From NCBI GenBank assembly GCA_018649885.1, contig JABIHA010000080.1, positions 1 to 64,000 of the forward strand: DNA of 64,000 nucleotides, written 5' to 3'. Below, one piece after another: positions 9,002 to 45,805 of this stretch. Numbering within the stretch: the stretch's first letter is position 1; each line of letters opens with the position of its first letter. The DNA comes from Bacteriovoracaceae bacterium (GTDB lineage: Bacteria; Bdellovibrionota; Bacteriovoracia; Bacteriovoracales; Bacteriovoracaceae). The notes under the pieces are model-generated. The model saw only the letters and a list, made by a program, of their open reading frames with translations. It was not told the origin of the DNA and did not search any database. The position numbers were made by a program, and so were the translations under genes.

Positions 9002-9871
9002 TTGTCACTACAAAATTTATCAGATTCAAGGTTACTAGCAGATACTAAAATGTGGAATGAAAAAGAAGATTACTGCACCAGGCAGTTTCTTAGGCACATT
9101 AATGAAGTGAATAGGAGGAGGCTTTTTTGTGATGATAAGACAAGCTCGCTCTTTAAATATATCCGTAAGAATTTTAATAAAAGTGATAGTGAGACCAGTC
9201 GAAGAATACTTGCGGCAAAAACACTTAGGCATGTTCCTTGCGCTGACAAGGCACTGGCAAATAAACAAGTGACTCTGACTAACCTTGCTGAGGTCTCAGG
9301 GGTGGTGGCAAATATAAAAAGTCGTAAGAAGAAAAATGAGATTCTTGAGAGTATTAAGGGTAGAACTCAAATTCAGGCAAGAGAGCTGGTGGATCAACTG
9401 ACGGGAAAAACGCGTGCCACAAGACCCCAGACTCGCGAACACTCGGATGGAAGCCTTAGGATTCATCTAAGTCTTGTGGGGGAGAGCGCAAGAGATTATC
9501 AGTTCGTTAAAGAGCAGCTTTCAAATAAGGGACTCTATAAGTCAGAAGATATTATCGCCCACTTCATAAGCATGACAGCTGAGTCCATGAGAAAAAAGAT
9601 TGCAGGTATTGGTTCCAGAAAATCTAAAGTGATCACAAACTCCAGGACCATCTCAGCTGCTATCAAAAAAGCTGTGATGACAAGGTCAGTCAATAAGTGT
9701 GAAAACTGTGGATCAAGATACAACCTACATTTTGATCATATTATTCCCCACAGTATTTCAAAATCATCGGCGATTACCAATGTGCGCCAATTGTGTTCAA
9801 ATTGTAATAGCAGAGCTGCCATCAAGTTGCTAACTCAGCAGAAGATGGATTTATACATCAATAAGAGCTAG
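9002..9871 (+). CDS. HNH endonuclease family protein
   Basis: 289 residues from TTG 9002, with GGGAGG 5 nt upstream. Residues 1-140 form a helical domain (LSDSRLLADTK, EVNRRRLFCDD, TSSLFKYIRK, SETSRRILAAKTLRHVP, TLTNLAEVSG) seen in a large group of HNH proteins of Bdellovibrio-like and related bacteria. A charged linker follows. The C-terminal HNH module (about 230-275) has zinc-type CENCG, LHFDHIIPHS and QLCSNCNSRAA, so metal-binding and catalytic positions are intact. The family's biological role is not settled; a selfish or defence role is possible. The inverted repeats on both sides suggest that it moves or duplicates as a unit. Confidence 0.9.
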   Translation: MSLQNLSDSRLLADTKMWNEKEDYCTRQFLRHINEVNRRRLFCDDKTSSLFKYIRKNFNKSDSETSRRILAAKTLRHVPCADKALANKQVTLTNLAEVSGVVANIKSRKKKNEILESIKGRTQIQARELVDQLTGKTRATRPQTREHSDGSLRIHLSLVGESARDYQFVKEQLSNKGLYKSEDIIAHFISMTAESMRKKIAGIGSRKSKVITNSRTISAAIKKAVMTRSVNKCENCGSRYNLHFDHIIPHSISKSSAITNVRQLCSNCNSRAAIKLLTQQKMDLYINKS

Positions 9872-11129: not shown

Positions 11130-11241
11130 TCAAAAGTTGTGTCTGCAATTCGCGTAGACGGGTGCTGAGGGAGTGGCATTTCGAATAGGCCGAAACGGAA
11201 TTCGGCGAAACCCCAAACAATGGTTTTTTAGGAGCGCTAAG

Positions 11242-13506
11242 GTGCAAAAAATTCTTCTATTATTGATAGTTTTGGCAATCAGTATTTCTTGCGGTTCAGA
11301 AGATCAACCTGAACCAGGATCATCATTTCAAATGAAACCAAGGGGAGAAGTCTTTTCAGTGTCAAGTGAACTTGAAAAACTAAACGCTTCCACATTTTTT
11401 ATTAAGTCTAACTCTGATAGGTATCCACCTCACAATTCTTGGAAGTCGTTCACTAGACTAATGAAAGAAGTTTCGATTTTTGATGCCACCACTAAGAAAA
11501 TAATGGCGGCCCTTTGTAGCGGTGACACCAACAAGTCAGTACTTATTGTTGGTGAGCCATCAGAAGCTTATCGTTATATTTTCTCTCGTCTTCCTTTTAT
11601 TACTCGTCAGGGTTGTAATCAGCAAATTCACGCCGAAATAAATATCAGTAAAATTGAAGAAGGCAGAAAGTATGTAGGAGAAGTTGAAAAATACTGGAAT
11701 GAATATATTGTTTCTCCTTCAGAGAAACACGATGTGGTGCTCTATCTAAAAAATCTAGGGATGCTCATAGGTCTTGGCTCTCACAGCCATGATTCAACTG
11801 GGATTGAAGCGGAATACGCTAGTAATATTTCTTCAGGAAGAATTAAAAGTGTGGCTTTTATCAATAAATACGAATTTAATAAACTTCAATTTTCTGAGCA
11901 CGCCTATGTTTTGGCCTCTTTTGCAGAAACTATTACTCTAGACGCACCAGGATCTTTAAAAGTTGGGCAGTTGGCCCAAAAATACCTAGAGGTTCTTCAT
12001 CCCCAATTATCTATTTCCAAAAGTAATTTAGATTACTTAGTAAAAATGACTTCTTACTACAGGCCCAATATTACAGAGCCTGGAAGAACAATTCAGATAT
12101 TAAAAAGTATGATTCGGGAGTATGAAGGGGAGCTTAACACTGCTGAAAAAAGCGTGAACTTTGAAACTAAGCATCCTTATAATTCTAGAAGCAATATTTC
12201 TAGGGTCATTAAATTTGATGGCGTAGAATCAATTTCCCTTTCCTTTACACGCTTTGAAACCCAAAGTGATGCTGATTATCTCTCTATCATTGATGGAGAA
12301 ACGAATATTGAGCTCGATAAGCTCAGTGGAGATAAGGGGGCCTTTGAAACAAAGTTTTACCCAAGTGCTCATTTGATACTAAAGTTTTCGAGTAATTTAT
12401 CTGTCCAAAGTTGGGGGTTTGATCTCAAAAAAGTGACAGTGGTAAAAAGTGGAAAAAAAGAGTTCACAAGAGATCAAGTGAGAAGGTCTCTTCTTTCAAC
12501 TGCACAGCTTCCTGAGTGGCTCATTGATAAAAAGTTTGATGTCATAAAAGGGTTGGGGAAAAAGCTTGATTTGGATGTTGTAGGAGTTTCCGAGGGAAAA
12601 AAAGATGTCATAAGGCTGAGTAAAATTGGCTATGTTGCAGGAAGAACAGATAAGAAGCCCATTGCCTCCGCATTACTTGTGGGGCCCACTGGGACGGGCA
12701 AGAGCTACCTTGCTAAGAAAGTCTCAGAGTATTTGGGACTTGGACTTGTTACTTTTGATATGACTTCCTATCGAACAGATGAAAGTTTTGATCGTTTTTT
12801 AGAAGTTCTCTCAAATTATCTTATTCTCTATCCTTATTCAGTTTACCTGTTTGAAGAGATCGATAAGGCCTCCATCAAAATATTAGACCGCCTTTATTTC
12901 ATGCTCGACGAGGGGATATTTTACGACAAGTACCAAAGGCCTTTATTTGCCAGAGGCGCTTATATTATGATGACCACTAATATGGCCTCGGACACAATTA
13001 TTAAGAACAAAGACAACCCAAAGCTTAGAGAACTTGTGGATCTTAAACTTCAAAAATCTTTCAGACCTAGTTTTTTAAATCGCTTTGATGCCATTACCTT
13101 ATTTAAACCCTTTAGTGATGCTGAATTTGTAAAACTGGCAAAAATCATGGTGGGTAAGAAAGTGAGACTCTTAAAAGAGCGCTTTGGCTGGGATCTTACA
13201 ATTGATAGCGCAACTATTTCTTATCTAGGTCAAAAAGGAAAGTCTTCTGTCTTTGGTGCCAGACCAATGGAGAGGCTCATTGAATCGGTAATATCTGTAG
13301 GAATTGCAGAGTGGCAACTTGCAAATGGAAGCATTCCCGAAAAAGGACATATCTCTATTACCCAGGTTTCCGGAAAAGATCAGTACTATAAAATTACAGA
13401 TGGCTCTCGCTCAGTGCTGGAGTATCATGTGGTGCCAAAAAACAATTCAGGTTTTATCCAAAGTATACTGGAGAGCATTTTTAGACAAAATAGATCGTTA
13501 AATTAA
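11242..13506 (+). CDS. ClpA/ClpB-like AAA+ protein with export signal and CUB-like insert
   Basis: 754 residues from GTG 11242 (TAGGAG 6 nt upstream). A longer frame from GTG 11173 adds 23 basic residues. The N-terminus MQKILLLLIVLAISISCGS looks like a lipoprotein signal peptide, although the residue at -3 is Ser, not the usual Leu/Val/Ile. Residues about 60-300 align by pattern with a Clp D1 domain, but the Walker A reads GEPSEAYR (104-111) and the Walker B lacks its acids (VVLYLKN), so it should not bind or split ATP. Residues about 305-402 look like a CUB domain (YLSIIDGE, AHLILKFSS, WGFDL). Then comes an intact D2: Walker A GPTGTGKS (481-488), Walker B YLFEEID (535-541), sensor 1 MTTN, Arg finger FRPSFLNRFD and sensor 2 FGARPMERLIE. 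An unfoldase role is inferred. A subtilase follows 14 nt later. Confidence 0.85.
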   Translation: MQKILLLLIVLAISISCGSEDQPEPGSSFQMKPRGEVFSVSSELEKLNASTFFIKSNSDRYPPHNSWKSFTRLMKEVSIFDATTKKIMAALCSGDTNKSVLIVGEPSEAYRYIFSRLPFITRQGCNQQIHAEINISKIEEGRKYVGEVEKYWNEYIVSPSEKHDVVLYLKNLGMLIGLGSHSHDSTGIEAEYASNISSGRIKSVAFINKYEFNKLQFSEHAYVLASFAETITLDAPGSLKVGQLAQKYLEVLHPQLSISKSNLDYLVKMTSYYRPNITEPGRTIQILKSMIREYEGELNTAEKSVNFETKHPYNSRSNISRVIKFDGVESISLSFTRFETQSDADYLSIIDGETNIELDKLSGDKGAFETKFYPSAHLILKFSSNLSVQSWGFDLKKVTVVKSGKKEFTRDQVRRSLLSTAQLPEWLIDKKFDVIKGLGKKLDLDVVGVSEGKKDVIRLSKIGYVAGRTDKKPIASALLVGPTGTGKSYLAKKVSEYLGLGLVTFDMTSYRTDESFDRFLEVLSNYLILYPYSVYLFEEIDKASIKILDRLYFMLDEGIFYDKYQRPLFARGAYIMMTTNMASDTIIKNKDNPKLRELVDLKLQKSFRPSFLNRFDAITLFKPFSDAEFVKLAKIMVGKKVRLLKERFGWDLTIDSATISYLGQKGKSSVFGARPMERLIESVISVGIAEWQLANGSIPEKGHISITQVSGKDQYYKITDGSRSVLEYHVVPKNNSGFIQSILESIFRQNRSLN

Positions 13507-13520
13507 TAGATGGAGAGAAT

Positions 13521-14804
13521 ATGATGAAATGGATTTCAACTATTTTACTTTTAGCGTGCTTTTGCACGACTTATGTCATGGCAAGCTCAGTCCCTGGAGA
13601 GTTCTTACTCAAAGTTGACACTGAAACAAGTGGCCTTGTTTTAAAATCAAAAATTAAACGCTGGGGAGTTCAAAAATCTCAATTTCTTTCAGGAAAGAAT
13701 TTGATTGTGAATTTGAAAATACCCAAGAATCGGGAATCGAAGACCCTAGAGCTTATAAGAAAAGATCCATCAATTCTTTTAGTAGAACCAAATTATATTT
13801 ATCGATCCTTTACAGCAGCTGATCCTGCCTATCGCAATATGTGGGGTCTAAAAAATACTGGTCGAAATACTGGTTCATGGTTTGGTGGAACCAAAGGTAT
13901 GGATATTAACGCCGAAAAGGCCTGGACGCTTTCAAAGGGCTCAGACAATGTTGTCATCGCTATTATTGATACAGGCCTTGACTACAAACATCCCGATCTT
14001 GCCAGAAATGTTTGGGTTAATAGTGCCGAGGCTTCAGGAACAGCTGGAGTTGATGATGATGGCAATGGGTTAATAGATGATATCCACGGGTATGATTTTA
14101 TTAATGATGATGGGGATCCAGATGATGATCAAGGACATGGAACTCACTGTGCGGGAGTGATTGGTGCTATTCACGACAACGGCATTGGTGGAAAAGGTGT
14201 GATGGACCGAGTGAAGATCATGCCACTTAAGTTTCTTTCAAGCGCCGGGTTTGGCACACTGGAGGCAGCGATTAAGGCAGTGGACTACGCTACTAAAATG
14301 GGTGCTACCCTGACTTCTAATTCATGGGGCGGAGGAGAAAAATCAGATCTTCTTTTTGAGTCTATTAAAAGAGCACAGGCTGCTGACATTCTTTTCATTG
14401 CGGCCTCTGGAAATGCCAAAAATGATAATGATAAATGGGGGACTTTTCCTGCTAGCTACAAATTAGACAATATTATCACTGTCGCCGCCTATGATGGTTA
14501 TGGCAAAAGAGCAGGCTTTTCAAATTACGGAAAGACCTCAGTACATGTTAGCGCACCAGGTGTAAAAATCCTTTCCACCTTTAAAGGTGGCAGATATAAA
14601 AAGCTTAGTGGCACCTCTATGGCCACACCACATGTATCAGGTGCCATAGGGCTTCTTTTAAGTCTGTACCCCCACTTAACTGCCGCTCAAGTAAAAAAAC
14701 GAGTGATTGCCACCAGTAAAGAGGTTGTAAAACTTAAAGATGTCAGTGAGTCGGGTGGAAGAATGGATGCTTATCGTCTATTAACTGATGATCGTTCAAG
14801 ATGA
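13521..14804 (+). CDS. secreted subtilisin-like serine protease (S8)
   Basis: 427 residues, with GGAGAG before the ATG. Order: signal peptide (1-21), an inhibitor-I9-type propeptide (about 25-95, ending LLVEPNYIYR), then the S8 catalytic domain. The triad is D150 (IIDTGLDYKHPD), H206 (GHGTHCAGV) and S366 (GTSMATPHVSGA). The oxyanion Asn lies in FIAASGNAKND. An Asp-rich loop (about 174-200, GVDDDGNGLIDD) is a likely calcium site. No C-terminal domain is present. The protein should be exported, mature by cutting its propeptide, and act outside the cytoplasm. It directly follows the AAA+ gene, suggesting a shared task. A hairpin terminator follows. Confidence 0.96.
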   Translation: MMKWISTILLLACFCTTYVMASSVPGEFLLKVDTETSGLVLKSKIKRWGVQKSQFLSGKNLIVNLKIPKNRESKTLELIRKDPSILLVEPNYIYRSFTAADPAYRNMWGLKNTGRNTGSWFGGTKGMDINAEKAWTLSKGSDNVVIAIIDTGLDYKHPDLARNVWVNSAEASGTAGVDDDGNGLIDDIHGYDFINDDGDPDDDQGHGTHCAGVIGAIHDNGIGGKGVMDRVKIMPLKFLSSAGFGTLEAAIKAVDYATKMGATLTSNSWGGGEKSDLLFESIKRAQAADILFIAASGNAKNDNDKWGTFPASYKLDNIITVAAYDGYGKRAGFSNYGKTSVHVSAPGVKILSTFKGGRYKKLSGTSMATPHVSGAIGLLLSLYPHLTAAQVKKRVIATSKEVVKLKDVSESGGRMDAYRLLTDDRSR

Positions 14805-14805
14805 A

Positions 14806-14828
14806 AGCTCCCCAGATTTTAGGGAGCT
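14806..14828 (+). terminator. hairpin terminator after the subtilase gene
   Basis: AGCTCCC and GGGAGCT form a perfect 7-bp stem with a 9-nt loop, directly after the stop codon. The following sequence is pyrimidine-rich (CTTCTTCAAC) rather than a pure T run, so termination may be partial. It also sits just past the stop of the converging gene on the other strand. Confidence 0.6.
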
Positions 14829-14843
14829 CTTCTTCAACTATTT

Positions 14844-15272
14844 TTATTCGTTAACTTTGGCCTCAGGTTGAGGAGTTGTATTAGCTATTATTGATGATGC
14901 TTGGACACAGCTTACATAGTAACTCAAGCTTCCAATCTTTATGGGCTGTACACTTGGTGAATCTCTTCGAATAGGTTTTTTGATGTAAAATGCGATCATA
15001 GTATCTGGTGCAGACTCAACGGTATGAATTGAATGCAGGTAGTTTTTATCCACTACCATGACTCTGTCTTCATGTTGAGTAAGAATCAGCATTAAACTAC
15101 TCATTGCATCTCCTGGACGACTCTTTGGTTCCCCACATACCTCAGCACTTTCGACTTCCATCAATTGAAAACTTGGGTACGCTGGTAATCTTCCATCTTC
15201 ATGAACTCCACTTGGGTCTGCCAGTAGGTTCGTGCTGAGTAAAAATAATATTCCTAGAGTTAATGCTTTCAT
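14844..15272 (-). CDS. secreted hypothetical protein behind a hexanucleotide repeat
   Basis: 142 residues with signal peptide MKALTLGILFLLSTNLLADP. The mature part has two cysteines (SAEVCGEPK and YYVSCVQAS) and ends in a Pro/Glu-rich tail. No family recognised. Its ribosome-binding site AAGGAT (15277-15282) is joined to a long A-rich simple repeat, (AAAAAT)n on this strand, so expression may vary with repeat number. It follows another small secreted protein of the same style on the same strand, 79 bp upstream, which is likely co-transcribed. Confidence 0.75.
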   Translation of the reverse strand: MKALTLGILFLLSTNLLADPSGVHEDGRLPAYPSFQLMEVESAEVCGEPKSRPGDAMSSLMLILTQHEDRVMVVDKNYLHSIHTVESAPDTMIAFYIKKPIRRDSPSVQPIKIGSLSYYVSCVQASSIIANTTPQPEAKVNE

Positions 15273-15280
15273 TGTTATCC

Positions 15281-15335
15281 TTTTTTTTATTTTTATTTTT
15301 ATTTTTATTTTTATTTTTATTTTTATTTTTATTTT
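15281..15335. repeat. hexanucleotide simple sequence repeat (ATTTTT)7
   Basis: Seven perfect ATTTTT units (15289-15330) plus a partial one and a flanking T8 run. On the minus strand it reads (AAAAAT)n and sits directly upstream of the Shine-Dalgarno of the 14844-15272 gene. Length changes by slippage would alter the 5' untranslated region without touching a reading frame. Confidence 0.95.
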
Positions 15336-15351
15336 GTTACTTACTATATAG

Positions 15352-15882
15352 TTATTCTTCTAAAGATTCTGTTTCTGGATGCTGATCACGACCTGAGCCT
15401 CCAAAATTAAAAGAGGCAGGTGGTTTTGGTTCGGCCATTGTATGGACATTCACTTGGCACGATTCAATAATAATATTGTTAATTTGAACTTCACCAACAT
15501 TGGTTTTAGCTGCTTCTATTAACTGACAATCAACAGCAGCTGCATCTTCATTTGTTTCAAATATTTCGATTAACGCTTCCAATCTTTGTGTCTGAAGGGG
15601 AATATCCTCTGTTTCAGCATCATTTATTTTGACAGGAACCGGAACTCTTGGTGGAGGGACAACTGCTGCTCCCGGAACTACTGGAGGCGGAAGAACGAGG
15701 GCCGTAAGTTGCCTGATTCCTTCTTCTGATACAAAACCTTTCAAAATCTTTACATTTTCAGTCATGGGAAGTGCTGAATCATCAAAGTCTGGGTTTACTT
15801 GCTCACCAGATGCAAAACCAAAAGGGTTGCAAAAAGCATTTGCAGATATCAAAAGTAAGATAATTAATAGAGATCCTTTCAT
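15352..15882 (-). CDS. secreted Pro-rich hypothetical protein
   Basis: 176 residues behind AAAGGAA. Signal peptide MKGSLLIILLLISANAFCNP; a cysteine sits at the cleavage region but the preceding residues (NAFC) are only a weak lipobox. The middle holds a proline-rich stretch (LPPPVVPGAAVVPPPRVPVP) and two further cysteines in DCQLIEAAK and ESCQVNVH. The end is Gly/Glu-rich. It could be a linker-containing envelope protein. No family recognised. It is likely the first gene of a two-gene unit with the gene behind the hexanucleotide repeat. Confidence 0.75.
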   Translation of the reverse strand: MKGSLLIILLLISANAFCNPFGFASGEQVNPDFDDSALPMTENVKILKGFVSEEGIRQLTALVLPPPVVPGAAVVPPPRVPVPVKINDAETEDIPLQTQRLEALIEIFETNEDAAAVDCQLIEAAKTNVGEVQINNIIIESCQVNVHTMAEPKPPASFNFGGSGRDQHPETESLEE

Positions 15883-16097
15883 TTTTCTATTCCTTTAAAA
15901 AGTATTTATTTTCTTTAAATTGTAGCGAATTTTGAAAGAGAGTGAGAGGCAAGTGTAAATTTGAAAAGCTATATGTATAAAATAGACACTTTTTTAAATG
16001 TATAATCAGTTGTCACCCCCTATAAAAACTACATTGATGAAGCTTAACCACTCAAAAAAATATGTGAAATACTAGAAAGTTTCGCTCTATTTGGGAT

Positions 16098-27271: not shown

Positions 27272-30200
27272 ATGAGATTTACGGCGATTTACAACTTAAC
27301 ACTGATGTTTGCTTTCCTTTTGGTTGGGTGTGCTAAGGACCTACCCGAAAAGATGCCAGAGGCATTACAAGAGACGGCCCACTCTATTGGCAATTTAGAA
27401 GGAGCTGTAATTAGCTTGGTCACTAGTGGTAATCCTTCAGTAGACGCTCTTACAGAAGAGGAAGCTAAGAAGAAAGAAGCAAGTGAACCACAAGACTTAT
27501 TAAACTTGCAAGAAAATGGGCTAGTAAAAGTCGTTGGTGCCACTGGACCCACCGAATTTTTGCAAATGTTTGATGACCTCTCCATCCCAGGCAAATCAAA
27601 TACTAGCTATTCAGTCAAATTAAAGGTGATAAAATCTCAATACCTTGTTGCTTATATCGTTGTGAATACTAGTGAGCTGAGCTCGACTCAAGCGGTGATT
27701 GCTGAAGGAAATCTTGTTCCGATCTTCTACTATGATATCAAAGATGTCGGTGTACTTAGAAGAAAATTAAATGATTTAGACGAGGAGACTAGAACAGTAG
27801 AATTTAAACCTACTGATGATGGTAATGCTACACACGTTAAGATTAATTTGATGGTTAAAAATAGAAAGCTTGTTGGGATTCAATCAGTTGAAGATGATAC
27901 TTTAAGAGAGCTTTACAGTAAGAATAGCTTTGACCAGCAGATAACACTAGCTAAAAATTTACAGAAAAAACTGGGTAAACAAATTGAATCTCTTTCAGAT
28001 CTAAGAATTGTCAAAACTGAGATCGTGAGAAATGGCTCCCTCTTAGTAAAGGTATTTAAACAAAAATCAGAGCTTACTGAAGATGAGCTTGAAATATTGA
28101 GTGGCTCTTCAGAGAATATCCACATTCAAGAGTGTAATGATGTTGAAAAAGAGAAAGTGATAGCTTTGGGAGGCTCGTTAAGCGATGGGTGTTATTTTAC
28201 AACAGCATACCAAATGGCCGTAGATTTTGTTGACCTTGAAAAGGTCGTTGAAAAGCAAGACCTTGGCATTGCCACTCCTAAATTAAAAGTTGTTCCTTCA
28301 AGAGACTTTGGAAATGCCACTGTTATTCAAATTAAAGGTTCGACCAGTTTTACTTTCTTCTCTCCTGATACAAAAAAAGATCCTTCTTTTCTCGCAACAA
28401 AGTTTTCACTTCCTGTTAAGTATTTCAAAGGTAAAGAATTTCTTTTCAGAAGAGTTCTGGTCGATTCTCCAAATACTTTCAACTACACCTTTGCCGGCGC
28501 AGCTGGTGGACTTGAAATAGTCAAATTTGTATTTGACTCAGACTCTGTTGAGGTTAAAAAATCAAAGCCAGGTTTAGATAAGCCGGGAACAACCGACGTA
28601 GATGAAGAAGTCTTGATGAGAATCCCGGTTTACGGTTATTACAGGCTCACTGATAAAGATATGCAAGGCCGTCCTCTGGGTAGCGTTCAATATATCCGTA
28701 CTTGGTCGGGAGATCCCCAAGCCACTGCCATTATTAATTGGGAAGGAAATAGTATTCCCAATATTAATTCTCCTCTCGATTATTTCTCATTAGGCCAGTG
28801 TTTTGGTGGAGTGACAGATAAAGAGATTGAAAAAGTTGCCCTTGATGAAGACGCGGGAAGTTTCAATTTTACACTGGCAACAAGTTATGTCGCCAATCCA
28901 AAAGCTGGATGCGTAAATGTATTTTCTGGATATTTTGATTCGCCAACTCAAACTCAACTAACTTTTAAAGAGAGAGTTTCTTTTAAAGAATACAAGGCCG
29001 TTAAAAATGAAGCAGATTCATTTGGTGGAGACATTCCCTATGAAGGCCAAAAGAAAATGGGATACGGTTTATTTACGTATAGTAAAACTGTGCCCGATAA
29101 ATTTGGTGGAACTTCAACAATTGGTACCAAACAATACCTTCCAGCTATCTTTGATATAAAAGACGACAAACAAATTGAATACGTGCTTGCTGGTATGCCT
29201 TCACTTCTAGTTGTTGATCCAAGGGAAAAACTTTTTGATCCAAAAGAGCTTAGAGAAGAATTAATTAAATCTACTGCGGAAGTTTTTGAAGATCTCAACG
29301 ATGGGTTTAGAGCTTCATTTAAAGGAACTGGTTTTAGAGACTCTGAAAAAGATGTCATTGCCTTTAAATTAGAAAAAGATGAAACCTTTGAAGACATGAT
29401 TGAAAAGTTTGAAGAAGGTGCTGATAACGGGATCTCTAAGTCAGAAGGGACTTACTACTACAAGGGTATTGCTCTTGCTGAGGCCAAAGAGATGGGCGAC
29501 CTTGAGAGAAACTATGTCTATTACGTTGAAAAACAAACCAATAGCTCAATTATAGGCCTTGGTGGCTCTCATGCAAATCCTAGAAATGGTAAGGTTGAAT
29601 CTGCCTCTATCTACCTTTACGGTGGAAATATGAGATCAATGATCAAATCCTTTAGACTTCTTGAAAAAGCAAAAGTTGATTATGAAAAACTCACTAACCC
29701 TAAAAACTATAAATCCTTGAATCCTTCTGAAGATAAAAAAGGAGAGGGAAAGGTAGCCGAAGAAACTGATCCTGATGCTGAAGGTGAGCTAGATTCTGGT
29801 GGCGGTGAAAAAGGTAACGGCAATGAAGATTTGGCCGGACACTTTAAAGAACAATTAATTAAGATTATCGCCAATATGAACTCTGTTGAAATGAAGTCTG
29901 ATAAAATGACAAAAGAGCAATATGACGCTGCAATGTCAAAGCATATTAAGGCCTTTGAAAGAAAAGTAGACTCTGAAGAGATCGGCTTCATTTTAAACGA
30001 TATTATTGATAGAAATTTAGGGCACTCAAATACTCCTCCAAGTGATGAGCTATACTCACTTCAAGAGGTGAGAAACTCAATCGATAAGAAATCTCTTCCT
30101 ATTATTGAAGCTCTCAATATTGCTCTTGAAAAGGCCAAGGCCAGTAATGCTTTCACCAATGAACACGAGGTACAGGAGTTATTTTCAGGAGTGCTTTTAA

Positions 30201-32797
30201 GACACGATGCTTACCAAGATACATCTAGTAATAAACTTGTTGGTGACGAATTTATCGAAGCTATTGAGTCAAATAAGATTGCAAAGGCTTGGTATAAAAA
30301 AGTTCACAAAAACTTGGAGAGTAGAAATATCTGTCTCTATCAAGGTTTTAATCCAGCTAAAGCAGTTACTGCAGCAGGGAAGTCAATCTCAGACATGAGT
30401 GATTTGGAAATCTTTTTTGCATCGTGGAAGCCAACTGTTGCCCATGAAGTTGGTCACAACTTGGGCCTTAGACACAATTTCATTTCCTCTTTTGATAAAG
30501 CTAACTGGAAGTTTTCAAGTGTTGAAGATTCAAAAAGAACTTACTCTTCTGTTATGGATTACCTTGTGGATGACCACCTCATTTATGATGGTCTAGGTCC
30601 ATATGATATTCACGCACTAAGAGCTGCTTATACTGGGCTTGTTGAACTTGCTCCTCAAGCTCTTGCTTTTGCCAAGGCCAAGAGTTTAGACAATTTGAAC
30701 GGTGCTAAGATCTACGGTGAAAAATTCATCAAAGTCGCTGACTATCCAAAAGCTATTGGTGCAAATTCCTGGTTTGAGGTGACTAAAAGAGACACTGCTG
30801 TCAAACTTCCAATTAAAGGTTACAAATTCTGCTCTGATGATGAAGCTGGTCAGTATCCAACTTGTAATAGATTTGACTATGGAACCACTGCTGTTGAAAT
30901 TGTTGATTTTAAAATACAAAATTATCGTGAAAGATACTCACTAAGAAATTTTCCTCACGATAAACTAAGATTTAATTCAGAAACTGCTGGTGGATATATT
31001 GGATCACTATTTTCAACATTCACAGGCCTTAGACAATTTCTTGAAGAATTTTTCTTTCAAGCAATGTTTGAAAGGCCGCTGAGTAGTGACCCTGCAAGTG
31101 CAGCTGAGTTTCAAGCAAGACTTCAAGATTATTTTCAAGCTGCTTACAAAGGTTATCAATTTCTTCAAGGTGTAGTGAGAACTCCAGATGTCGCCTCATA
31201 TGTGAGTGTTGGATCTAATCAGCGATTTGTCCCAATCAAAATGACTATGAGGAAGCGAAACCCCGATGGCTCAACTGTTGAAGTTGAAGTTCCAGTTGTT
31301 GCTGAAACTAAGTTTGCAAAAAACCAAGGGACAGATACAACTCATCAAAGACTTAAAGTTAGAGGTGTGGAGTTTGATAGAGTCATCGCTTTGATTATCA
31401 TGACTCAATCTAATCTTGGTTTCCCTAGATACTTAAGAAGATCACTTGTTGTAAATTATCCGATGTTCGAAAAATTTGTACTAGGCGTCGAGATTAAAGA
31501 TTCTGAGGTTGTTAATCTTCTAAAAGAAATCTTAAGAGGGGACCTAACTCCATCTGTAACAACTAGCGAGGGATTTAACTTGCCACTAAGCTTTCCTTAT
31601 TACAAAGACGGTGGCAAACCTTTCGTTTCGGATATCAGTGAGATGCTTAGAAACTATGCTGTCATTGGCTCAATCTCTAATCTTGATATCCAAAGCTTTG
31701 AGCCCGGCCTCAATCCTTCTAGAGCATTCAGAATTCTATCTGATATGGAAGCTCCGGAGAAAGCTGAGTATGTGACAAAACAAGATGGAGACATCAAGTA
31801 CTGGTCTTTTTCAGGATCAACAGCTTCGGATGCTCTGATTAAGGCCGGACACTTTATGAGAGTCATAGAAGAAAGTGGCATAAAGGAGCTTCTAGGTGAG
31901 TGGGTTAATATGGAAGTCACTACACTTGGTCAAAAGCCTACAACCATGAATGTTGCATATGATGAGATTTTGCTAAGTGTAAATTTAGGAAAAAGAAAAA
32001 CGGCCAAAGAAAAGCTAGTAGAGATCAATGCAAAAATTAAAGAAATAATGGATGACTTTTCACCTGAAAAGATTCCTGCTTTGACGATCCTAAATGAGAG
32101 AAAGGAAAAGCAAGTTGGCGTTTTACTATTTTCAGATGAGATCATTAGAGCACAAGTTATCTCGCTTCTCTCTAAAGAGGGAGCGCCAGAAGGACTTGTT
32201 TTAGATGATAAAGATGCTCTTGCTCTTCTTGAAGAGGTTGAAGGAGAAATTTTCAAATTAGTCAGAGAAAAACTTAAGTCAATGGCCTCGGTTTTAAAAT
32301 CTGTAAAAGAGGGAAGTGATCCAGAAAAAGTGAAAAAGATTAAAGCTCTTGTGATCACAATGACAAAGTTAAAGCTGACTATAAAAGGGATGATAGCAGT
32401 AAAAGTTGATGCTGTGCTTAAGGGCCTTGTCGATCCGGGCACTAAGTTTGAGCTTTCGACAGCAAATCTTGGTCCATTTTTAATTAGCGATGTATTACAA
32501 AATACAATAAACATAGCCGCCAGAGGGAATTATTCTGGCAAGAATGCGGACGTTTATAATTTGAGTACTAAGTATGCTAAATTATCAAGGTCTATACCTG
32601 TTCTTGGTTACGCTTTATCTTTACTGGATGGAGCAAATGCGGATGTTTATCTACCACAGGCGGATGCAGTGTTTAATGTCTCAGTAATTGATAGTGTGAA
32701 GCCAGCTGATCTAAGTGGACAGCAGTACAGCATTATTAGTAACATTAAAATGCTGTCTAATATCTTTATTTCCATTAATCCTGAATACAAACAGTAA
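27272..32797 (+). CDS. giant metzincin-type zinc metallopeptidase lipoprotein
   Basis: 1841 residues. The lipoprotein signal is clear: MRFTAIYNLTLMFAFLLVGC, with C20 as lipidation site. The zinc site is HEVGHNLGLRH (H1058, E1059, H1062, H1068), preceded by FASWKPTVA, and a Met-turn SSVMDYL follows (M1095). This resembles the DUF4953/DUF5117 group of zinc-dependent metallopeptidases. A long N-terminal region (1-1000) is beta-rich; about 700 residues follow the catalytic site and end in a Lys/Glu-rich helical part. It should be tethered at the outer membrane. A helper protein gene precedes it, and a strong terminator ends the unit. Targets are unknown; prey or matrix proteins are possible. Confidence 0.92.
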   Translation: MRFTAIYNLTLMFAFLLVGCAKDLPEKMPEALQETAHSIGNLEGAVISLVTSGNPSVDALTEEEAKKKEASEPQDLLNLQENGLVKVVGATGPTEFLQMFDDLSIPGKSNTSYSVKLKVIKSQYLVAYIVVNTSELSSTQAVIAEGNLVPIFYYDIKDVGVLRRKLNDLDEETRTVEFKPTDDGNATHVKINLMVKNRKLVGIQSVEDDTLRELYSKNSFDQQITLAKNLQKKLGKQIESLSDLRIVKTEIVRNGSLLVKVFKQKSELTEDELEILSGSSENIHIQECNDVEKEKVIALGGSLSDGCYFTTAYQMAVDFVDLEKVVEKQDLGIATPKLKVVPSRDFGNATVIQIKGSTSFTFFSPDTKKDPSFLATKFSLPVKYFKGKEFLFRRVLVDSPNTFNYTFAGAAGGLEIVKFVFDSDSVEVKKSKPGLDKPGTTDVDEEVLMRIPVYGYYRLTDKDMQGRPLGSVQYIRTWSGDPQATAIINWEGNSIPNINSPLDYFSLGQCFGGVTDKEIEKVALDEDAGSFNFTLATSYVANPKAGCVNVFSGYFDSPTQTQLTFKERVSFKEYKAVKNEADSFGGDIPYEGQKKMGYGLFTYSKTVPDKFGGTSTIGTKQYLPAIFDIKDDKQIEYVLAGMPSLLVVDPREKLFDPKELREELIKSTAEVFEDLNDGFRASFKGTGFRDSEKDVIAFKLEKDETFEDMIEKFEEGADNGISKSEGTYYYKGIALAEAKEMGDLERNYVYYVEKQTNSSIIGLGGSHANPRNGKVESASIYLYGGNMRSMIKSFRLLEKAKVDYEKLTNPKNYKSLNPSEDKKGEGKVAEETDPDAEGELDSGGGEKGNGNEDLAGHFKEQLIKIIANMNSVEMKSDKMTKEQYDAAMSKHIKAFERKVDSEEIGFILNDIIDRNLGHSNTPPSDELYSLQEVRNSIDKKSLPIIEALNIALEKAKASNAFTNEHEVQELFSGVLLRHDAYQDTSSNKLVGDEFIEAIESNKIAKAWYKKVHKNLESRNICLYQGFNPAKAVTAAGKSISDMSDLEIFFASWKPTVAHEVGHNLGLRHNFISSFDKANWKFSSVEDSKRTYSSVMDYLVDDHLIYDGLGPYDIHALRAAYTGLVELAPQALAFAKAKSLDNLNGAKIYGEKFIKVADYPKAIGANSWFEVTKRDTAVKLPIKGYKFCSDDEAGQYPTCNRFDYGTTAVEIVDFKIQNYRERYSLRNFPHDKLRFNSETAGGYIGSLFSTFTGLRQFLEEFFFQAMFERPLSSDPASAAEFQARLQDYFQAAYKGYQFLQGVVRTPDVASYVSVGSNQRFVPIKMTMRKRNPDGSTVEVEVPVVAETKFAKNQGTDTTHQRLKVRGVEFDRVIALIIMTQSNLGFPRYLRRSLVVNYPMFEKFVLGVEIKDSEVVNLLKEILRGDLTPSVTTSEGFNLPLSFPYYKDGGKPFVSDISEMLRNYAVIGSISNLDIQSFEPGLNPSRAFRILSDMEAPEKAEYVTKQDGDIKYWSFSGSTASDALIKAGHFMRVIEESGIKELLGEWVNMEVTTLGQKPTTMNVAYDEILLSVNLGKRKTAKEKLVEINAKIKEIMDDFSPEKIPALTILNERKEKQVGVLLFSDEIIRAQVISLLSKEGAPEGLVLDDKDALALLEEVEGEIFKLVREKLKSMASVLKSVKEGSDPEKVKKIKALVITMTKLKLTIKGMIAVKVDAVLKGLVDPGTKFELSTANLGPFLISDVLQNTINIAARGNYSGKNADVYNLSTKYAKLSRSIPVLGYALSLLDGANADVYLPQADAVFNVSVIDSVKPADLSGQQYSIISNIKMLSNIFISINPEYKQ

Positions 32798-40883: not shown

Positions 40884-41078
40884 GTTTAGTTACGATGAAA
40901 CATTTGTGTAAAAAGTTTAGACACTGGTTTAATTAATTGGCCCAAATTAAAAAGGGGAGTATTGTGGCCAGGCTTGAATTTAGAGGTTTCAAGCAGTTAG
41001 TGGTGGTGCAAAGGACATATTAATTGGCAGTAATATTGCAAGTAATGTCAACGTAATGTGTATTTATACAGAGGTGTT

Positions 41079-43373
41079 ATGAGAGTAATCAGTAACTTAT
41101 CCCTAATTTTATTAGGAGCATTTTTGCTTCAATTAGGAGCTGCGAGTTCTCACGCCAAAGGCTACTCCAATTTAAATTTTTATCTATCTGATAAAGGAAA
41201 GAATAAGCTGGTCTCAGAGCTTGTTCATTTTTCTAGTAGAATGCTAAAAGATAAACTTACAGAAAAATTGGATTATGCTAGCGGAAAAAAACCAGATGCA
41301 GTTGTTAAGCATGGGGTTTATCCTCAGAATTTTGGAAAAAAATCCTTTGAAAAAACTGAAATTGGTGGAATGGTTTTCGATTTTTTAAAGTCTCAAGGGC
41401 TTGCTTCTGATGGGCAAGGAGTTAAGTTTTATGTAGAGCATTCGAATATTGAAATCGATTTTGATATTGATCCTGACAACTTAAAATTGTCTATGCCTGT
41501 ACAGTCGGGATTACCTACAATTAAAGTGAGTTTTGAAATCAAAAATATTAAAATACATGTGGATGAAGTTGTTATTTGCAAAGAGGCATTTTATAGCTCA
41601 GCTGAAAAAAAATATACAAGCTGTGACAGAAGAAGCTTGAATGCCATTTTTAACACTGCTAATATTAAAATAAGAGAAGGCCATTCACTTAAAGTTGAAG
41701 TTATGGCCTTCTTTACTAAAGAAGATGATGGGCAATTAAGAATAATAATCGACTCAGATGAAACGACTTTTACCATTGCTCCCTATGACTTTGAAAGTAT
41801 AACCTTTGGGTTCAGAGCCGAGCCAATCAATATTATTAAAGACGGAGTGATCTTTGATAAGATTGATATGATGTGGATTAAAGAACTTATTTCTCCAAGG
41901 GACCACTCCTACAGGAATGAAGAAGAGAAGTGGAGGAAGGCCAAGAAACGTCAGCTTGAGCTAATCGGCCTCCTTATAAAGTATTTACGAAACTTTGCAA
42001 CTGACAGCATTGATGGGTTTCTCAATGCTTTTCTTACCGACACTAAAACGCCAATGTATCCACTCAATACAAAAGCGGGTTACACATTCCCCAAAGAAAA
42101 AATTAGTGTAAAACTCAATAGTGCTGGAGAATTACCAGAAGATGCTATCCTAATGGACAGAATCTATTTTTACCTTACTGAAGCGAACTTAAAGCTCAAG
42201 CAATTTGAGTTAAGAGTTAGAAATCCTGAAGCGGCCAATGACCTTAACAAGCTTGAACTTCTGACTAACTCTCAGTTTTCACTAACCTATCTAGATAAAA
42301 GTGACAGAAAATACTATGAGGTTTTCACTGAAGACCAGGCGAGTATCAGAGCAGGGGCCAATCCTTATGATCCCTACGAATTTTTAGCTCCAATGGCAAG
42401 CTATCTTGGGGCGACTACTAACGGGCGTGAGAGATATGATTTCTCGGCCTCTGTTGGAGAGCCTTTACTCGATGGAATAACAACTGTTCTTCAACGAGTA
42501 TTACTCGGAAACGATGCATTTAATATTATAGAGGACGAGAATATTAAAGTAATTGGTCTTAGAACATATGTGGGACTTCCTCAGCATAATTATGAATATA
42601 TAGCAGCAAACTATCCATTATTTGATTTGAAAGAAAAGCTGTATGTGACTGCCTTAGTCGATTTAAACTTAAAGGGCATGTGCGAAGGTGGCTCCTTCTT
42701 TAGTACTGAAACACACGGGATATGTGGTTCTAACTATTATACTCAATTTGGTATCGATACCAGTAAAATTCGTATTCCACTAACATTTGCTATTATCCCC
42801 GAAATTGTAAGGCGTAGAGAAAACTGTGAGTGTCAAGATGTCGACTTTGTTGATGATGCAGAAGTGGGGATGTGCTATATGGGCAAGGGTCCTCAAATCG
42901 ATTTTAGTAGCCCGATAGGTGCATGCCAATCCCTAAAGCTCAAAATTGAGTCTCCATTTTGGGAAGATACTTCAAGTGGAGTTGTTAATTTTGTTAATCC
43001 TTTTTCACATACTGAGCAGATTAGTTTAGTGCAAGATGCTTACTTTGTTTCTATTAAAAATAGGATCAAAATAAAAGTTCGACAGACTGTAGAAAGAGCG
43101 CTCAGTAATCGTGATGATGAAGACAATAAAAAATATGATGTGAATGGAATCTTTGCAGGTGAGGGATCTCAAAGTATTTTTTGGAATCCTAGAACCAGAC
43201 AAAAAACTTTTAATTTGGAATTTTCAATTGATGATTTGTTAAATCAACGTGGAATCTATATTAAGGCAGGAGAAATTGAGATGACAAGAAGTGGTCATCT
43301 TCTTTTACATGGTGATTTTGATTATATAGACTTTTTTCATATGACCCTCCAACCTTATGAGGTGGTACAGTGA
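41079..43373 (+). CDS. large secreted protein of unknown function (first of a coupled pair)
   Basis: 764 residues from ATG 41079 (AGAGGTGTT upstream); GTG 41058 is a weaker choice. Signal peptide ends near SSHAKG. The N-terminal half is built of long amphipathic strands and a helix (NKLVSELVHFSSRMLKDKL, then KLSMPVQSGLPTIKVSFEI). That pattern faintly recalls lipid-binding TULIP/BPI-like or SRPBCC-like barrels, but I cannot assign a family. The C-terminal half has a cysteine-rich patch (MCEGGSFFST, GICGSNYY, NCECQDVD, GMCYMGKGP). The next gene starts within its stop codon, so the pair is translationally coupled and probably forms one complex. Confidence 0.8.
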   Translation: MRVISNLSLILLGAFLLQLGAASSHAKGYSNLNFYLSDKGKNKLVSELVHFSSRMLKDKLTEKLDYASGKKPDAVVKHGVYPQNFGKKSFEKTEIGGMVFDFLKSQGLASDGQGVKFYVEHSNIEIDFDIDPDNLKLSMPVQSGLPTIKVSFEIKNIKIHVDEVVICKEAFYSSAEKKYTSCDRRSLNAIFNTANIKIREGHSLKVEVMAFFTKEDDGQLRIIIDSDETTFTIAPYDFESITFGFRAEPINIIKDGVIFDKIDMMWIKELISPRDHSYRNEEEKWRKAKKRQLELIGLLIKYLRNFATDSIDGFLNAFLTDTKTPMYPLNTKAGYTFPKEKISVKLNSAGELPEDAILMDRIYFYLTEANLKLKQFELRVRNPEAANDLNKLELLTNSQFSLTYLDKSDRKYYEVFTEDQASIRAGANPYDPYEFLAPMASYLGATTNGRERYDFSASVGEPLLDGITTVLQRVLLGNDAFNIIEDENIKVIGLRTYVGLPQHNYEYIAANYPLFDLKEKLYVTALVDLNLKGMCEGGSFFSTETHGICGSNYYTQFGIDTSKIRIPLTFAIIPEIVRRRENCECQDVDFVDDAEVGMCYMGKGPQIDFSSPIGACQSLKLKIESPFWEDTSSGVVNFVNPFSHTEQISLVQDAYFVSIKNRIKIKVRQTVERALSNRDDEDNKKYDVNGIFAGEGSQSIFWNPRTRQKTFNLEFSIDDLLNQRGIYIKAGEIEMTRSGHLLLHGDFDYIDFFHMTLQPYEVVQ

Positions 43374-45805
43374 AAAACCATATTGAAATGTCACTCCTAA
43401 TGATAATTGCAGCTATTTTATGCCCGAAGGCATATAGCGATATTTTAACTCGTGGTGCGACTCCAGATATTATAGTCGATGCAAAACTCGATAAAATTCA
43501 AAGTGGACCTGTTTTAAATAAGGTCAGAACACTTCTAGAAAATTTTGATATTGGAGATCCTTTAAACTCAACTTATGATAAACCCTTCGATCTTGTAGAG
43601 TCAGAACTCAGGTGTATGATTCCTAAAAAGGGAAAAGACTTAATAAATGATTTATTTATGTATGAAACAGTTCAAAGGGCCATGAGAGTTAAACTCGGTG
43701 CTAAAGTTGAAAGACTTCATTACAATTTCACAGAATTCCATATGGATGTTAAAGAGTTTTCTCCTCAAGATGATAAACTCATTGTAAAGGCCGATTTCTT
43801 AATTGGATCTCTCTCGATTGGTGCTGATAATGTTCAGGTTGATTTGCAAAAATGTAAAAATGCAAGTCGATTTGAAGAGGCTGAAATAAAGTCTTGTGAA
43901 GAAATAGAAAGAGAAATTGAAGAATATGCCCAAGGAATTCACCCAATCCTATCTCCCGAAGAAGAGGAGATAAAAAGATATTCTTGGTGTCCTGGTGGAA
44001 AAGAAGATGTTTATAGCCTAGTTAAACTTAATATTCCAGAAGTTAAAATTGTCATCAAGTCTGATACTTCTATTAGAATACCTGTGGAATTTGAAGTGAT
44101 TTTAGAGGAAGAAACAATTAGAGTTGATATTCTTGAAGCCGACTTTTCTCTTGTAAAAACACACTTAGAAAAATATGCCACTCCAAATGATGGGTCAGAG
44201 GCAGTACTTTTAAGCAATGGAGAAAAGGCCATCGAGATTTTTAATCAACCTACCCAGATTGAAGGGATTGATGGAATCCAGAGTGGGGCAACGCAGATGT
44301 ATTCTCAAGAGGCCATGAAAGATTTGATCACTCAAAACACTCCAAGAATTAAGGGAATGCTTTCAACGATTGTAAGTGATTTACTTGATAAGCAAGATTA
44401 TCGAGGTAAATCATACGGGTTAAAATTACTAGAACTGCTTGAGGGAATTACCTGGGATAAAAAATATTGGTTTGAGCATGCAGATATGTTTAGTCATATT
44501 ATTGTAAATAGCTTAGATAATCTTCATTCAAAAAGTCTGGAAATTAATCTGCCAGGTGACTTTTGTACTAAAGGTAAAAAAGAAAGGCACGAGGAGGATT
44601 GTGTTAAAAGAAAATTCAAAACGACAAAACCAAGGCTCTCAAGGCTTACTCAGGAAAATCTTGATGAGTCTAGAAGAGTTATTGAAAGAGAAATAAGTGA
44701 CCCAGGAAATGATTCAAATATTATTTTGAGTGTGAGTGAAGACTATATTAATAAGCTAATCCTAACTACCTATGATGCAAAATTGTGGGATGATTCACTG
44801 AGAGCAAGTGGTATTGAGCTTGGTGACAAAAAGGCTTTTGTTGTTTTTGATAAGGAAATTAGAGATGATGGGCAGGTAAGAAAAAGAGCAAAAATGTATA
44901 TGGATATCGTTTATAAACCAGATGGTGTGAAATCATTTTTTCTTGGAACAAAACGTGTTCACTTCCCGCTGATTGCTGAGATTAAATCAAGAGTAGAGTC
45001 TTGGCCCATTGATAGCGACTGTCTTATAGTTTTAAAAAATGATAGAGATTATGTTGAATTTTATTCATCTATTACAGAAAACAATGCTGTGGATGACAGT
45101 AAATGGCCCACTTGTATTGATGACCATGGCGAGAAAAGAGATAAAATTCAAGTTGATCTAAGAACGGTTAGAAATAACCATGAACTTAACTCTGTACCTA
45201 TTTACCTACTTACAATTGATAGCGTTAATGTGGATGAAGATCTTATATTAAATGGTGATAGAGAATATGGACTCCCTGGTATTGCGACTAAGCCTGAGAG
45301 AATTAAAGGCAAAAAAAGAGAGAAAAAAGAGAATGTTAAGTTTTGGAAGAAAAAAGTTTATGGATATATTAAAGATGAGCTCTTAAAAACTGAGGGGAAA
45401 GATATACTTAGCTTTGCTTATCCAGAACTTCGAAATATAAATATGCCTAACTCAGAGTTTAAATCTGACGGAGAGGGAAGGATGAATGTGACCCTCAAAA
45501 TTAGCTCAAAAGAGAAATCTCAGGTAGAAGATATCGCTCGTAGAGAAGAAGAAGCTGCCAGACGAAGTGAATTTGAAGTGCAAAATATTGTAACTCCTGA
45601 CTCAACACCTCCCAGGGAAGAATTTGTAACAACCCAAACTAAGGCAGAGAACGATACCGAAGAAGGCGAGGATGGAATGAAAGCTGTTTCTCTTGAAACT
45701 GAAATTGAAGTAGATCCTAATGTTTTGGTTATAGACAAATTGCCTATAGAAACAGAGATCGAAAAAGGGATTCCTGAAGAGGAAACTGAAGCGTTATCCG
45801 AGTAA
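43370..45805 (+). CDS. large secreted protein of unknown function (second of a coupled pair)
   Basis: 811 residues from GTG 43370, overlapping the previous stop by 4 bp (GTGA). Signal peptide MKNHIEMSLLMIIAAILCPKAYS. The body looks like a distant relative of the first protein: early helices, then strand pairs (LIVKADFLIGSLSIGADNVQ, IPEVKIVIKSDTSIRIPVEF) and scattered cysteines. Residues about 720-811 form a low-complexity Glu/Thr tail (ETEIEVDPNV, ETEIEKGIPEEETEALSE). No family is recognised. The partner's coupling, equal size and shared style suggest a periplasmic or surface heteromer. Confidence 0.8.
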   Translation: MKNHIEMSLLMIIAAILCPKAYSDILTRGATPDIIVDAKLDKIQSGPVLNKVRTLLENFDIGDPLNSTYDKPFDLVESELRCMIPKKGKDLINDLFMYETVQRAMRVKLGAKVERLHYNFTEFHMDVKEFSPQDDKLIVKADFLIGSLSIGADNVQVDLQKCKNASRFEEAEIKSCEEIEREIEEYAQGIHPILSPEEEEIKRYSWCPGGKEDVYSLVKLNIPEVKIVIKSDTSIRIPVEFEVILEEETIRVDILEADFSLVKTHLEKYATPNDGSEAVLLSNGEKAIEIFNQPTQIEGIDGIQSGATQMYSQEAMKDLITQNTPRIKGMLSTIVSDLLDKQDYRGKSYGLKLLELLEGITWDKKYWFEHADMFSHIIVNSLDNLHSKSLEINLPGDFCTKGKKERHEEDCVKRKFKTTKPRLSRLTQENLDESRRVIEREISDPGNDSNIILSVSEDYINKLILTTYDAKLWDDSLRASGIELGDKKAFVVFDKEIRDDGQVRKRAKMYMDIVYKPDGVKSFFLGTKRVHFPLIAEIKSRVESWPIDSDCLIVLKNDRDYVEFYSSITENNAVDDSKWPTCIDDHGEKRDKIQVDLRTVRNNHELNSVPIYLLTIDSVNVDEDLILNGDREYGLPGIATKPERIKGKKREKKENVKFWKKKVYGYIKDELLKTEGKDILSFAYPELRNINMPNSEFKSDGEGRMNVTLKISSKEKSQVEDIARREEEAARRSEFEVQNIVTPDSTPPREEFVTTQTKAENDTEEGEDGMKAVSLETEIEVDPNVLVIDKLPIETEIEKGIPEEETEALSE

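Follow-up and report, generated by a model that had tools for sequence, protein, structure and literature searches.

To our knowledge, the Clp-type motors of bacteria are regarded as cytoplasmic, and the usual view is that there is no ATP in the bacterial periplasm. Exported or lumenal ATPases of the Hsp100 type are known from eukaryotes. Torsins – Clp relatives of the endoplasmic reticulum lumen – lack pore loops and depend upon membrane cofactors (PMC7175109). HSP101 (ClpB2) of Plasmodium, part of PTEX, acts on a membrane channel outside the cell (PMC7355975). Skd3 (CLPB), of the mitochondrial intermembrane space, requires the tyrosine of its GYVG loop for disaggregation (PMC7343390).

The gene analysed here lies on a 64,000-nucleotide stretch of DNA from a member of the Bacteriovoracaceae (the window) and encodes an ATPase with an export signal and, between its two AAA+ domains, a CUB domain; we refer to it as Clp-CUB. 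The first-pass annotation of the window knew of no described system with this layout. That claim needs narrowing, given the eukaryotic proteins above; for bacteria we found, among open-licence papers, neither an exported Clp nor a CUB-AAA+ protein. By homology Clp-CUB belongs to the Hsp100 lineage, yet it lacks several defining features of ClpA, ClpB and the torsins. With the bacterial proteins ClpA, ClpB and ClpC it shares the order D1-D2-D2-small and a homologous D2, but it is exported, carries the CUB insertion, has a dead D1 and is without the D2 pore loop, the N-terminal Clp domain and the IGL loop. The torsins of the ER and nuclear envelope lumen are likewise AAA+ proteins outside the cytosol, with no aromatic pore loops and with membrane protein partners – and the Clp-CUB paralogue gives a weak Pfam Torsin signal (20.4 bits, cut-off 27) – but they have one AAA+ domain and an arginine finger supplied by LAP1/LULL1, whereas Clp-CUB has two AAA+ tiers, a CUB domain and an FLNRF finger of its own. 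HSP101, too, is an Hsp100 protein outside the cell with a membrane partner; unlike Clp-CUB it has two active NBDs with pore-loop tyrosines, a middle domain and no CUB. Skd3, a Clp-type protein outside the matrix, resembles Clp-CUB in having an extra interaction domain and differs in its essential GYVG loop, its ankyrin repeats and its lack of CUB; it has a single NBD. With a conserved Clp-type ATPase that is exported and has a membrane partner of its own, the rule of an ATP-less periplasm could be put directly to the test, torsins and HSP101 would have a counterpart in bacteria, and the route by which nucleotides get to the envelope of these bacteria would need explaining.

Architecture of Clp-CUB

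The features of the gene are collected in Table 1. The spacing of the AGGAG motif supports the start at 11242 over a GTG at 11173, which was rejected because a ribosome site with good spacing is absent there. A frameshift or misjoined reading frame was likewise rejected: the layout is intact in several genera and in a paralogue.

Table 1. Clp-CUB, its parts and the adjoining subtilase gene (window coordinates)
Feature	Position	Strand	Basis or remarks
Shine-Dalgarno-like AGGAG	11230..11234	+	Sequence read; 7 nt before GTG at 11242
Exported Clp-CUB ATPase CDS, 754 aa	11242..13506	+	GTG start, intact ORF; orthologues 42-48% identity
Signal peptide, lipobox-like ISIS-C (Cys17)	11242..11292	+	Complete orthologues: signal peptidase I-type sites instead
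D1 AAA+-like domain, ~residues 80-295	11479..12126	+	Catalytically dead by motif, pore-loop tyrosine kept (RKYVGEVE), conserved Cys 92 and 125; alignment with same genome's ClpA/ClpB, Foldseek, cysteine count
CUB domain, ~residues 298-405	12133..12456	+	Pfam, AlphaFold model, family profile
D2 AAA+ and D2-small, ~residues 430-705	12529..13356	+	Pfam, NCBIfam, alignment
D2 motifs: Walker A GPTGTGKS 481-488; Walker B variant YLFEEID 535-541; sensor 1 TTN; Arg finger FLNRF; sensor 2 GARPMER; GYVG pore loop deleted			
C-terminal extension past D2-small, ~49 aa	13357..13503	+	Alignment, model secondary structure
Exported S8 subtilase	13521..14804	+	14 bp downstream of Clp-CUB; Peptidase_S8 2.6e-57

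The N-terminus, MQKILLLLIVLAISISC, is strongly hydrophobic (best 11-residue Kyte-Doolittle mean 3.43) and has a cysteine at position 17. The export signal proposed at first pass is borne out, for a signal peptide is present in every complete member of the family and the comparison turned up no complete orthologue without one. As a general property the proposed lipoprotein character is not supported: the lipobox-type cysteine (ISISC) belongs to the window copy alone. Each mature Clp-CUB protein carries the same two cysteines, 33-34 residues apart (a third is present in the protein of locus L037); for the ClpA and ClpB-like proteins of the window genome the counts are 5 and 3. The conserved pair is what an oxidising compartment would lead one to expect.

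The assignment of the inserted domain to CUB is well founded. Pfam PF00431 matches residues 311-395 above its gathering cut-off (E=3.2e-5 with the full protein, 1.6e-6 with the segment alone), and 7 of 8 family members have such a match, the best at 2.5e-10. A family profile of the segment, compared with PDB sequences, finds cubilin (1e-16), C1r (8e-9), enteropeptidase (1e-7), neuropilin (2e-6) and other animal CUB proteins, and the AlphaFold model of the region is all-beta with pLDDT mostly 78-93. The Pfam and profile matches uphold the first-pass suggestion of a genuine CUB fold between D1 and D2 and reject the alternative that it had itself named, a known Clp middle domain; the coiled-coil middle domain of ClpB is absent and CUB occupies its place. 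No member has a cysteine in the CUB segment, unlike animal CUBs with their disulphide cysteines. The same kind of domain occurs at the C-terminus of some exported subtilases of the window genome, and a paper of 2008 pointed out a CUB domain in a subtilisin of Bdellovibrio (PMC2605481). This Bdellovibrio protein (NP_967057.1) and its relatives are likewise secreted-type, CUB-bearing proteins of the same bacterial group, although there CUB is joined to a protease and here it lies inside an ATPase. The domain is therefore probably one that, by origin, is shared among the secreted proteins of this group.

That Clp-CUB is a Clp-type ATPase, as first supposed, is confirmed for D2 by Pfam (AAA_2, 2.4e-20; ClpB_D2-small, 1.7e-8) and for the whole model by Foldseek, in which both AAA domains align with chains of ClpC, ClpA and ClpB (E 4e-20, ~700 alignment columns). 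The best NCBIfam match, ClpA at 1.3e-34, scores 119.6 bits, far under that family's cut-off of 993 bits. D1 has no Pfam match and is colinear with the D1 of ClpA; the case for two tandem Clp-type AAA+ domains thus comes from Pfam and NCBIfam for D2, and for D1 from alignment and Foldseek only. The AlphaFold model (mean pLDDT 71.6) predicts D1 and CUB well and D2 more weakly (mostly 40-79).

Alignment with the window genome's ClpA and ClpB-like proteins shows that neither Walker A nor Walker B is left in D1 and that its arginine fingers are gone as well, so that Clp-CUB does not have the two working nucleotide sites of Hsp100/Clp class I. The D1 pore-loop motif is retained, KYRG having become KYVG, MYVG or FVG, always with its tyrosine or phenylalanine. 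Judged by these motifs, D1 is a dead ATPase that keeps a substrate-gripping loop. It is conserved as strongly as D2: between L032 and L033 dN is 0.05 in D1 and 0.06 in D2, with dS about 1, and the dN/dS ratios of 0.05 (D1), 0.06 (D2) and 0.16 (CUB) indicate strong purifying selection. At amino-acid sites CUB changes about five times faster than either motor domain (dN 0.27).

In D2, all nine members share the same Walker A, arginine finger and sensor 2 sequences, the catalytic glutamate is invariant and sensor 1 is kept. Walker B reads FEEID rather than xDEIx, the aspartate being replaced by glutamate in every member, and hydrolysis may therefore be slow or absent; with its other motifs retained, D2 may nonetheless hydrolyse ATP. 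A stretch of 13 residues that includes GYVG is deleted from D2 in all members and present in 20/20 other Clp loci examined. Given the need of Skd3 for its GYVG tyrosine, this loss makes a classical threading disaggregase unlikely. Also absent is the IGF/IGL loop that docks ClpP, found after sensor 1 in ClpA of the same genome; an NPxLRxLV-type sequence takes its place. The "complete D2" of the first-pass annotation thus holds for most of the catalytic motifs, and fails for the pore loop and the Walker B aspartate. The C-terminal extension is beta-rich and then helical, with an NNSG motif conserved in most members.

Relatives, linked membrane protein and possible ATP supply

Seven relatives came to light among about 85,000 species genomes, under the titles Halobacteriovorax, Halobacteriovoraceae, Oligoflexales, Bdellovibrionota and one "Proteobacteria" MAG. 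Clp-CUB is present in 6/369 genomes of the phylum (4/182 genera) and in 5/129 genomes of the taxonomic family. A second copy in the window genome, on C1, is 47% identical to the first. As far as each sequence reaches, all members have the order D1-CUB-D2; orthologues of like order, for which the first-pass annotation proposed a search, thus exist in several genera. Plasmid records yielded, among the matches listed, only Clp-type proteins at 22-24%. As a separate observation, the second copy is flanked on both sides by genes for large multi-spanning membrane proteins (L028:1577-3898 and 13710-16067), by eye similar to transporters of RND/MmpL type.

At every orthologue locus with upstream DNA a multi-spanning membrane protein of 211-226 aa is encoded directly upstream on the same strand. 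This protein of ~212 aa occurs in 7/369 genomes of the phylum and Clp-CUB in 6, with an overlap of 6 (Fisher 2e-12 by genome, 1e-7 by genus). It has no significant match in Pfam, NCBIfam or PDB, and its model has a pLDDT of 66.6. Only the window genome departs from this arrangement: its two Clp-CUB genes both adjoin subtilase genes, and its single copy of the membrane protein is encoded away from them, on another contig (C140). The export signal, the disulphide-ready cysteine pair, the CUB domain and the small membrane protein that usually accompanies it together lead us to conclude that bacteria of the predatory Bdellovibrio group probably run an ATP-powered machine outside the cytoplasm.

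A single genome of the taxonomic family (G031; L076:1105-2427) has the membrane protein without Clp-CUB. There it stands directly upstream of a gene for a 440-aa lipoprotein-like product, and a nearby exported protein ends in what appears by eye to be a CUB-like segment.

The membrane protein of the window genome (~213 aa) is part of a cluster (L045:4468-13292) that also encodes a 907-aa exported AAA+ protein with two cysteines only, a 792-aa Clp-like protein that has a signal peptide and retains GYVG and the two Walker sites, an RCC1-repeat protein and two more exported proteins, a trypsin-like protease and a VWA protein. With the two Clp-CUB copies this brings the exported AAA+ proteins of the genome to at least four. 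The two AAA+ proteins of the cluster were rejected as a conserved system: the 907-aa protein is found in this genome only, out of 369, and the 792-aa protein has matches ~30% identical in 15 other genomes of the taxonomic family, as for ordinary Clp genes. Directly after the cluster is a gene of TLC type (L045:13312-14664). TLC proteins are a family of ATP/ADP transporters; this one is diverged (Pfam 57.7 bits; NCBIfam 53.1 against a cut-off of 387 bits). In the taxonomic family TLC-type genes are found in 5/5 carriers of Clp-CUB and 47/124 non-carriers (52/129 overall, about 40%; Fisher 0.009, with the kinship of the genomes ignored), and they are absent from two carrier genomes outside that family, those of L037 and of L035, the latter a match to G185, which is 100% complete. 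As an obligatory source of ATP the transporter is thereby weakened, since not every carrier has it and many non-carriers do, and we regard it as a lead on ATP supply, not as evidence of it. It is a tentative and on balance rather doubtful idea that these bacteria have a dedicated extracytoplasmic ATP economy, in which a carrier – of TLC type, or the co-occurring membrane protein – would feed ATP to the envelope and so power several exported AAA+ machines.

The subtilase downstream of Clp-CUB has the motifs DTGLD, GHGTH and GTSMATPH and is 47% identical over 398 aa to the C72 subtilase. A conserved partnership is not supported outside this genome: no S8 gene lies beside the orthologues in other genomes.

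Possible role

With moderate confidence we propose that Clp-CUB is an extracytoplasmic AAA+ ATPase of the Hsp100 type, a torsin-like or HSP101-like remodeller of the envelope coupled to the small membrane protein. The protein would be secreted through Sec, remaining lipid-anchored in the window copy and soluble in the others, and would form a disulphide between C92 and C125 as it folds in the envelope. It may then assemble into a ring in which D1 forms an inert tier with substrate-gripping loops and D2 the ATP-driven tier, with CUB at the junction, binding a partner or substrate on the outside. The small membrane protein encoded upstream would be its standing partner in most genomes. Its work would be the remodelling of membrane-associated envelope proteins, not processive disaggregation, and the ATP might be supplied by a carrier that draws on the cell's own cytoplasm, or by prey as it lyses.

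The subtilase neighbours suggest a different machine, an extracytoplasmic AAA+ protease in which the ring would unfold proteins and feed them to the adjoining enzyme, a ClpAP-like pair made of secreted parts. Both Clp-CUB copies adjoin an S8 gene in a genome with only 16 S8 matches; the subtilase beside the window copy lacks the CUB-like domain in which its close relatives end; S1-type proteases occur in the C140 cluster and, by eye, near the L037 locus; and D1 retains its aromatic pore-loop residue. The deletion of the D2 pore loop in all members, the absence of an IGL/IGF-type loop where ClpA has it, the lack of adjoining S8 genes in other genomes and the difference in type between the two neighbouring subtilases nevertheless make this explanation distinctly unlikely. 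We consider it unlikely, too, that the machine acts in prey – in the bdelloplast or the prey periplasm, in the style of HSP101 and PTEX, on prey ATP. The HSP101 precedent, the presence of carriers in lineages known for predation (Halobacteriovorax) and the rapid amino-acid change of CUB, as expected of a binding face, are in keeping with such a role; yet the gene is rare among relatives, carriers include lineages without an established predatory habit, and its constant association with a multi-spanning membrane protein suggests a place in the envelope of the cell that makes it.

Two further explanations dispense with an ATP-driven motor outside the cytoplasm. Were the N-terminus an N-out membrane anchor, the AAA+ domains would face the cytoplasm, as in FtsH, where there is ATP and where a membrane protein partner would fit; we judge this very improbable, because positively charged n-regions and short h-regions are followed by signal peptidase-type sites (in one copy a lipobox), and because of the CUB domain and conserved cysteine pair. 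Alternatively, D2 might bind ATP or nothing, the ring being a pseudo-ATPase that serves as a static scaffold for CUB-mediated binding. A dead D1, the altered Walker B of all members and the lost pore loop are compatible with this, but a scaffold would not need the invariant Walker A, catalytic glutamate, arginine finger and sensor 2, and the explanation is accordingly improbable. An envelope remodeller thus remains our preferred reading of Clp-CUB.

Several other genes near the loci may be recorded. An HNH endonuclease gene (window 9002-9871) lies ~1.4 kb upstream of Clp-CUB, and HNH-like genes, identified by eye, lie downstream of it in L032 (10318-11154) and L037 (12038-13147), which may be coincidental should genes of this kind be frequent here. 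Further along the window are two consecutive ORFs of 771 and 811 aa (41058-45805) without a Pfam match at E 1e-4, and a gene (27272-32797) whose product, of 1841 aa, contains in its second half a metallopeptidase domain of Met-zincin/reprolysin-like type.
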